Below, one piece after another: positions 32,616 to 34,085 of a stretch of 64,000 nt of DNA (positions are counted from its first letter, which is position 1; each line of letters begins with the position of its first letter). The notes under the pieces were generated by a model. The model saw only the letters and a program-made list of their open reading frames with translations. It was not told the DNA's origin and ran no database searches. This DNA comes from Novakomyces olei (taxonomy: Eukaryota; Ascomycota; Novakomycetes; Novakomycetales; Novakomycetaceae): the NCBI GenBank assembly GCA_016906335.1, contig JADEYG010000007.1, forward strand, positions 2,000,001 through 2,064,000, given 5' to 3'. The position numbers were made by a program, and so were the translations under genes.

Positions 32616-34085
<1,470 letters not shown>

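Follow-up and report, generated by a model that had tools for sequence, protein, structure and literature searches.

How a spliceosome can find and use a coding exon of four nucleotides, and how such an exon can be told from a chance arrangement of splice signals, are the questions raised by an arginine methyltransferase gene of Novakomyces olei, an olive-oil yeast of the Taphrinomycotina whose genus has one species listed. The best explanation of this locus is that the four bases GATT are, very probably, a constitutive internal exon of the sole close PRMT1 copy found, included by an ordered, intron-defined mode of splicing. The case for a used exon of this size is drawn from features of the sequence, namely consensus-like splice signals at either end, a reading frame that the four bases restore, and homology to the left and right of the join. 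Found in a unicellular ascomycete, in a gene that is conserved and single-copy, a 4-nt exon would offer a small, tractable case of an intron-definition spliceosome confronted with an exon that has no room for two complexes at once. Exons of this type could also easily be missed by annotation without RNA-seq, here at the cost of the N-terminal residues around YF..Y.

The locus lies in a window of 64 kb (the whole stretch of DNA that was analysed; 43.1% GC) from an assembly of 14,339,745 bases in 15 contigs. The published genome comprises 14.3 Mb, in 15 scaffolds ranging from 0.17 to 2.6 Mb, with an N50 of 1688 kb and a GC content of 43.8%, and was annotated by MAKER with three ab initio predictors and homology (PMC7912804). 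The term "RNA-seq" is absent from the text of PMC7912804, in which "Novakomyces ... transcriptomes" are named once, as a BLAST target. Elsewhere in the assembly, CTAACCCTAACCC strings resembling TTAGGG-type telomere repeats occur well inside a contig (C7:656785-656877). The window also contains Rpb2, for which the best match is chain 3h0g (2330 bits vs 2008 for the next entry), from fission yeast, in keeping with a place in the Taphrinomycotina.

Gene identity and reading frame

Judged by homology, the gene is PRMT1 (Hmt1/Rmt1), a predicted type I arginine methyltransferase. Joining exon 1, GATT and exon 3 onward (Table 1) yields an open frame of 336 residues ending YRMC, in which GATT supplies the codon of Asp13 and the first nucleotide of that of Tyr14. 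Among the best 60 of 68 PDB matches of this product, the first is 1g6q (phmmer E 3.2e-135), aligned from DYYF, followed by 9vkf and then by chains named PRMT1 and PRMT8; we take 1g6q and 9vkf to be yeast Hmt1. The PRMT1 chain 8z2z, which we assume to be the mammalian enzyme, matches with a phmmer E of 1.8e-125, its TSK-DYYF aligned with TAK-DYYF. PRMT_C and methyltransferase domains are recognized by Pfam, and motif I, the double-E motif and THW (as YTHWK) are all present in the translation.

Table 1. Features of the predicted PRMT1 gene model, in coordinates of the window
Feature	Position	Strand	Description
Exon 1	34085-34050	minus	36 nt; begins ATG; ends AAA, phase 0
Intron 1	34049-33997	minus	53 nt; GTAAGC...TTCTAACTTTGCATAG; 3' end CATAG
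Branch-site-like CTAAC, intron 1	34006..34010	minus	9 nt before exon
Putative microexon GATT	33996-33993	minus	4 nt; between TTCTAACTTTGCATAG and GTATGT
Intron 2	33992-33686	minus	307 nt; GTATGT...TCTAACCATGCCAAG; CCAAG end, an AAG acceptor
Branch-site-like CTAAC, intron 2	33695..33699	minus	9 nt before exon; read directly
Exon 3	33685-33492	minus	starts AC TAC TTC GAC; ends VYG; contains VLDVGCGTG
Intron 3	33491-33393	minus	99 nt; GTATGC...GCTAATTCTTCAG; both sides fixed by PRMT1 homology
Exon 4	33392-32616	minus	IDMSD...YRMC, stop included; PRMT_C domain, E 3.2e-62

One close PRMT1 copy was found in the genome, the other PRMT matches being 43% and 37-42% identical. A PRMT3-like gene (C7:221224-222174, plus strand), the match at 43%, lies in a single open frame of 586 codons. 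A CARM1/PRMT4-like gene (C7:1690982-1692172, minus strand) matches PRMT1 at 37-42% in two pieces and has an apparent 243-nt intron, GTAAGA...CTAACACGACAG; to our knowledge, PRMT4 is unusual in ascomycetes. Directly upstream of PRMT1, and on the same strand, is an XPG/FEN1-family nuclease-like gene with XPG_N and XPG_I domains (window 34497-36206, minus), the stop of which is 411 nt from the PRMT1 ATG.

The original prediction held that exon 1 ends in phase 0, that the core exon starts two bases ahead of TAC TTC GAC, and that GATT is set between CTAAC...CATAG and GTATGT. The letters agree with each of these statements when the minus strand is read, a strand that the prediction left unnamed, and the use of GATT as an exon, which had also been proposed, is supported as the best explanation by the splice signals, the frame and the two-sided homology. 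Within the 30-nt limit applied to microexons, GATT has an acceptor before it and a donor after it, and contributes to the coding frame; full-length PRMT1 of 336 residues, if begun from exon 1, needs GATT in and both flanking introns out. Two overlapping donors, GTATGT and GTGAGA, lie 4 nt apart on the 3' side of GATT (window 33983-33992), and the 8-nt version of the exon that ends at GTGAGA is a frameshift, as can be read directly.

Direct joining of exon 1 to exon 3 by one 364-nt intron shifts the frame by one base, a discrepancy that the loss of a base during assembly, or decay of the gene, could account for. Such an error or decay is very improbable: the remainder of PRMT1 is open and highly conserved, GATT with both of its splice signals would have to be a coincidence, and the published assembly draws on PacBio and Illumina reads combined (PMC7912804).

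Homology upstream of the join comes from the C-terminal seven residues of exon 1, GQDKTAK, which align with the AEDMTSK that directly precedes DYYF in 8z2z. The score of this alignment, 18, was equalled or bettered in 27 of 200,000 random 7-residue draws from a pool of 39,679 residues in long open frames of the N. olei genome, and the match thus fixes the register as Lys followed by the Asp that GATT would encode. Exon 1 itself has 50% GC, against 23% in the intergenic stretch upstream, and a hexamer score of +4.9. Because 9vkf has HYFNSYDH at the position of DYYFDSYAH, and the PRMT3-like paralogue of N. olei has LYFEAY where PRMT1 has YYFDSY, the residue before YF, partly encoded by GATT, is variable, and the description of DYYFDSYAH as near-universal went too far.

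Splice signals at the locus and across the genome

Donor sites were scored with a matrix built on 28 predicted introns, none of them from PRMT1 and each supported by coding sequence to either side. These introns came from the 70 best-ranked non-overlapping candidates of a wider search, of which 37 passed the coding and 400-nt limits and 9, in a repetitive array, were then removed. The matrix is small, and the ranking of candidates behind it favoured consensus-like sites. A repetitive coding array, at minus-strand offsets of roughly 1350-7320 in the concatenated loci L023-L042 and for the most part in L042, contains recurring 46-nt intron-like pieces, GTAAGT..GCTAACTTTACAG.

The donors of introns 1 and 2 score 8.0 and 8.8 bits, within the 4.7 to 11.4 bits of the training introns, and among all GT sites 1.3% and 0.6%, respectively, score as high. 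A branch site of CTAAC or CTAAT is found in 20 of the 28 training introns, and a branch-like site 5-9 nt from the exon in 23, in keeping with the CTAAC at 9 nt in both PRMT1 introns. An AAG acceptor such as that of intron 2 is infrequent in the training introns (2/28), and at 307 nt intron 2 is longer than 27 of the 28, in a set that was capped at 400 nt and is for that reason uninformative on longer introns.

Shortening of exon 1 at a weak donor, ATG/GTCAAG at 34069, followed by direct joining to 33685, would dispense with the microexon through a canonical GT-AG intron and preserve both the frame and YF..Y. The quality of the donor makes this solution extremely improbable. GTCAAG scores -3.2 bits, a value reached by half of all GT sites, and 0 of the 28 training introns share its C at +3 or its A at +5.

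Splice-signal strings were also counted across the genome, where CTAACN4-10AGN1-12GTATGT is not enriched (12 matches vs 42 for the backwards pattern), and neither is GTATGTN22-52CTAACN3-14YAG (75 matches, overlapping ones counted, vs 74 backwards). This lack of enrichment over the backwards patterns indicates that signal strings alone do not mark introns, so that coding-supported introns were used instead. Sixteen of the 75 matches were picked by eye as intron-like (about 900 bases each); under loose criteria, 5 of the 16 have a frame across the join, and some of these 5 loci have weak or negative coding scores. Earlier intron searches gave 6 sites with strict donors and 120-nt flanks, and 32 mixed candidates when anchored on the branch site. 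Table 2 of the genome paper reports a mean of 5.7 exons per gene, the median exon being 1047 bp long (PMC7912804). This combination seems at odds with the few internal introns supported in 264 kb, 28 in the training set, so that either the intron search misses many or the published statistic is off.

The RNA structure predicted for 33686-34085 is not unusual (z -0.56). A search of 32500-34600 against Rfam gave no match with an E of 1 or lower, and the 64-kb window gave none at gathering scores.

Chance arrangements and other start exons

When exon 1 and the last acceptor are held fixed, 10 internal exons are compatible with the frame, among which GATT alone combines a branch site with a consensus-like donor; the next best donor among the 10 scores 3.0 bits. 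How often sequence of this kind would offer such a path by chance was estimated from randomised versions of 33686-34496, obtained by shuffles that keep dinucleotides or, where shuffling failed, by first-order Markov resampling. When donors had to be as strong as those observed, a microexon path of at most 30 nt appeared in 0 of 20,000 randomised versions; at a looser threshold of 5.9 bits, 3 of 6,000 had one. At 5.9 bits, the real sequence offers a second path that also uses GATT but sets out from 34305. No microexon path was found in 8,101 real AT-rich segments, taken from 32,000 sampled (the remainder exceeded 40% GC or overlapped PRMT1). When the interior was Markov-resampled between an unchanged exon 1 with its donor and an unchanged last acceptor, successes per 20,000 numbered 2, 17 and 22 with the threshold for the microexon donor at 8.8, 5.9 and 4.7 bits, the looser values being given because the thresholds were chosen after the site had been seen.

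Across the genome, CTAAC-AG-(1-12 nt)-GTATGT has 12 matches, a single one of which, the PRMT1 site, leads from coding exon to coding exon. In 264 kb searched on both strands with any donor of at least 6.5 bits, acceptor-donor pairs no more than 15 nt apart linked coding exons in 1 of 12 cases, against 0 of 13 in reversed controls.

GATT had been claimed to be the only possible supplier of the missing phase, and this stands if the coding sequence begins with exon 1 at 34085; it does not stand in general, as start exons at 34436 and 34312 with consensus-like donors could supply the phase too. In such a gene model, without a microexon, another start exon would be joined to 33685 by one long intron. 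The best candidates are 34312-34294 (MKYDNL + H; 608-nt intron; TTC/GTATGT) and 34436-34427 (MSR + Y; 741-nt intron; GAT/GTATGT), both of which preserve the frame and YF..Y. Their donors, at 7.2 and 6.0 bits, fall inside the training range, and the lengths of their introns lie beyond what a training set capped at 400 nt can judge, the published median intron being 261 bp (PMC7912804). The start at 34312 gives HYF, as in chain 9vkf, so that the motif alone does not decide between start exons.

Several observations nevertheless make a start exon of this kind quite unlikely. Chance readily produces single-exon start solutions: at the same donor strength, 1,081 of 6,000 randomised sequences had one. 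The 34312 exon has 25% GC, and the hexamer scores of the two candidates (-0.4 for 34312 and -0.3 for 34436, vs +4.9 for exon 1) make them look non-coding. Moreover, either would leave the arrangement of exon 1, intron 1 and GATT, together with the resemblance between exon 1 and mammalian PRMT1, as coincidences.

Probable order of splicing and comparison with known microexons

Inclusion of GATT as a 4-nt exon would probably be achieved by intron definition, with the introns removed in order. Four bases are probably too few for the factors on the intron 1 acceptor and those on the intron 2 donor to be bound simultaneously. In intron 1, of 53 nt, U1 at GTAAGC would pair with the intron's own branch site and acceptor, and this intron, short and with strong signals, would probably be the first to go. 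Its removal would fuse GATT to exon 1, presenting the GTATGT donor with a 40-nt exon, and the 307-nt intron 2 would then be removed second.

Skipping of GATT, retention of intron 1 and retention of intron 2 bring a stop after 27, 16 and 15 residues, respectively, and inclusion should for this reason be constitutive and not a switch. With translation ending within 27 codons after any such slip, no enzyme would be expected. In switch-like regulated microexons a usable frame on skipping is usual, although not required; here skipping frameshifts to a 27-residue peptide. In a stwintron, excision of the internal intron reconstitutes a splice site of the surrounding one and no exon is left. This candidate was rejected, as removal of intron 1 leaves AAA-GATTGTATGT, in which the GTATGT donor pre-exists and GATT remains.

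According to a review, yeasts rely mainly on intron definition, which coupling through Prp40 may ensure when exons are too small for exon definition (PMC8624252); a study in C. elegans reports that microexons there require PRP-40 (PMC8378409).

Because every mis-spliced form examined stops early, enzyme output would depend on how the spliceosome handles the 4-nt exon, and the exon could conceivably act as a splicing valve through which PRMT1 senses and tunes its own level via U1 activity. This is an unlikely proposal, suggested by work in budding yeast, in which Hmt1 binds Snp1 (U1-70K) in a two-hybrid assay and methylates it in vitro, and loss of Hmt1 affects the recruitment of splicing factors (PMC3195771).

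Exons of 4 nt and 1 nt are already known from human and plants and have rarely been reported in fungi; the PRMT1 case would be notable for its size and for its location in a conserved enzyme. The cgs2 gene of S. pombe, an organism of the same subphylum as N. olei, has a microexon, in a different gene, that is said to be handled by intron definition and to be hard to skip, in work from 2000 by Romfo and coworkers.

Among fungi, the P450 genes of Phanerochaete chrysosporium, a different gene family from PRMT1, likewise contain microexons, with small introns of 45-55 bp and exons down to 6 bp (PMC1184071). Among the matches listed in the open-licence PMC literature, no report of a fungal PRMT1 microexon was found, nor any fungal exon shorter than that 6-bp minimum. 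The microexon of Trichoderma virens Xlr2, also fungal, is a tested case, a second exon absent from the annotated gene model; it differs in being 20 nt long and glucose-dependent and in belonging to a transcription factor gene (PMC11121469).

The 1-nt microexons of plant APC11 and VPS55 are similarly tiny, were missed by annotations and alter the N-terminus when omitted, whereas they are found across land plants and have been confirmed by RNA-seq and RT-PCR (PMC8831610). Closest in size is the microexon of human MPC1, likewise of 4 bp, not a multiple of three and reported as constitutive (PMC9929638). It differs from the putative PRMT1 exon in its long flanking introns and in a mode of recognition reported to be exon definition via a 67-nt 3' splice region; since the introns of PRMT1 are 53 and 307 nt long, in a yeast, intron definition is the more likely route for GATT.
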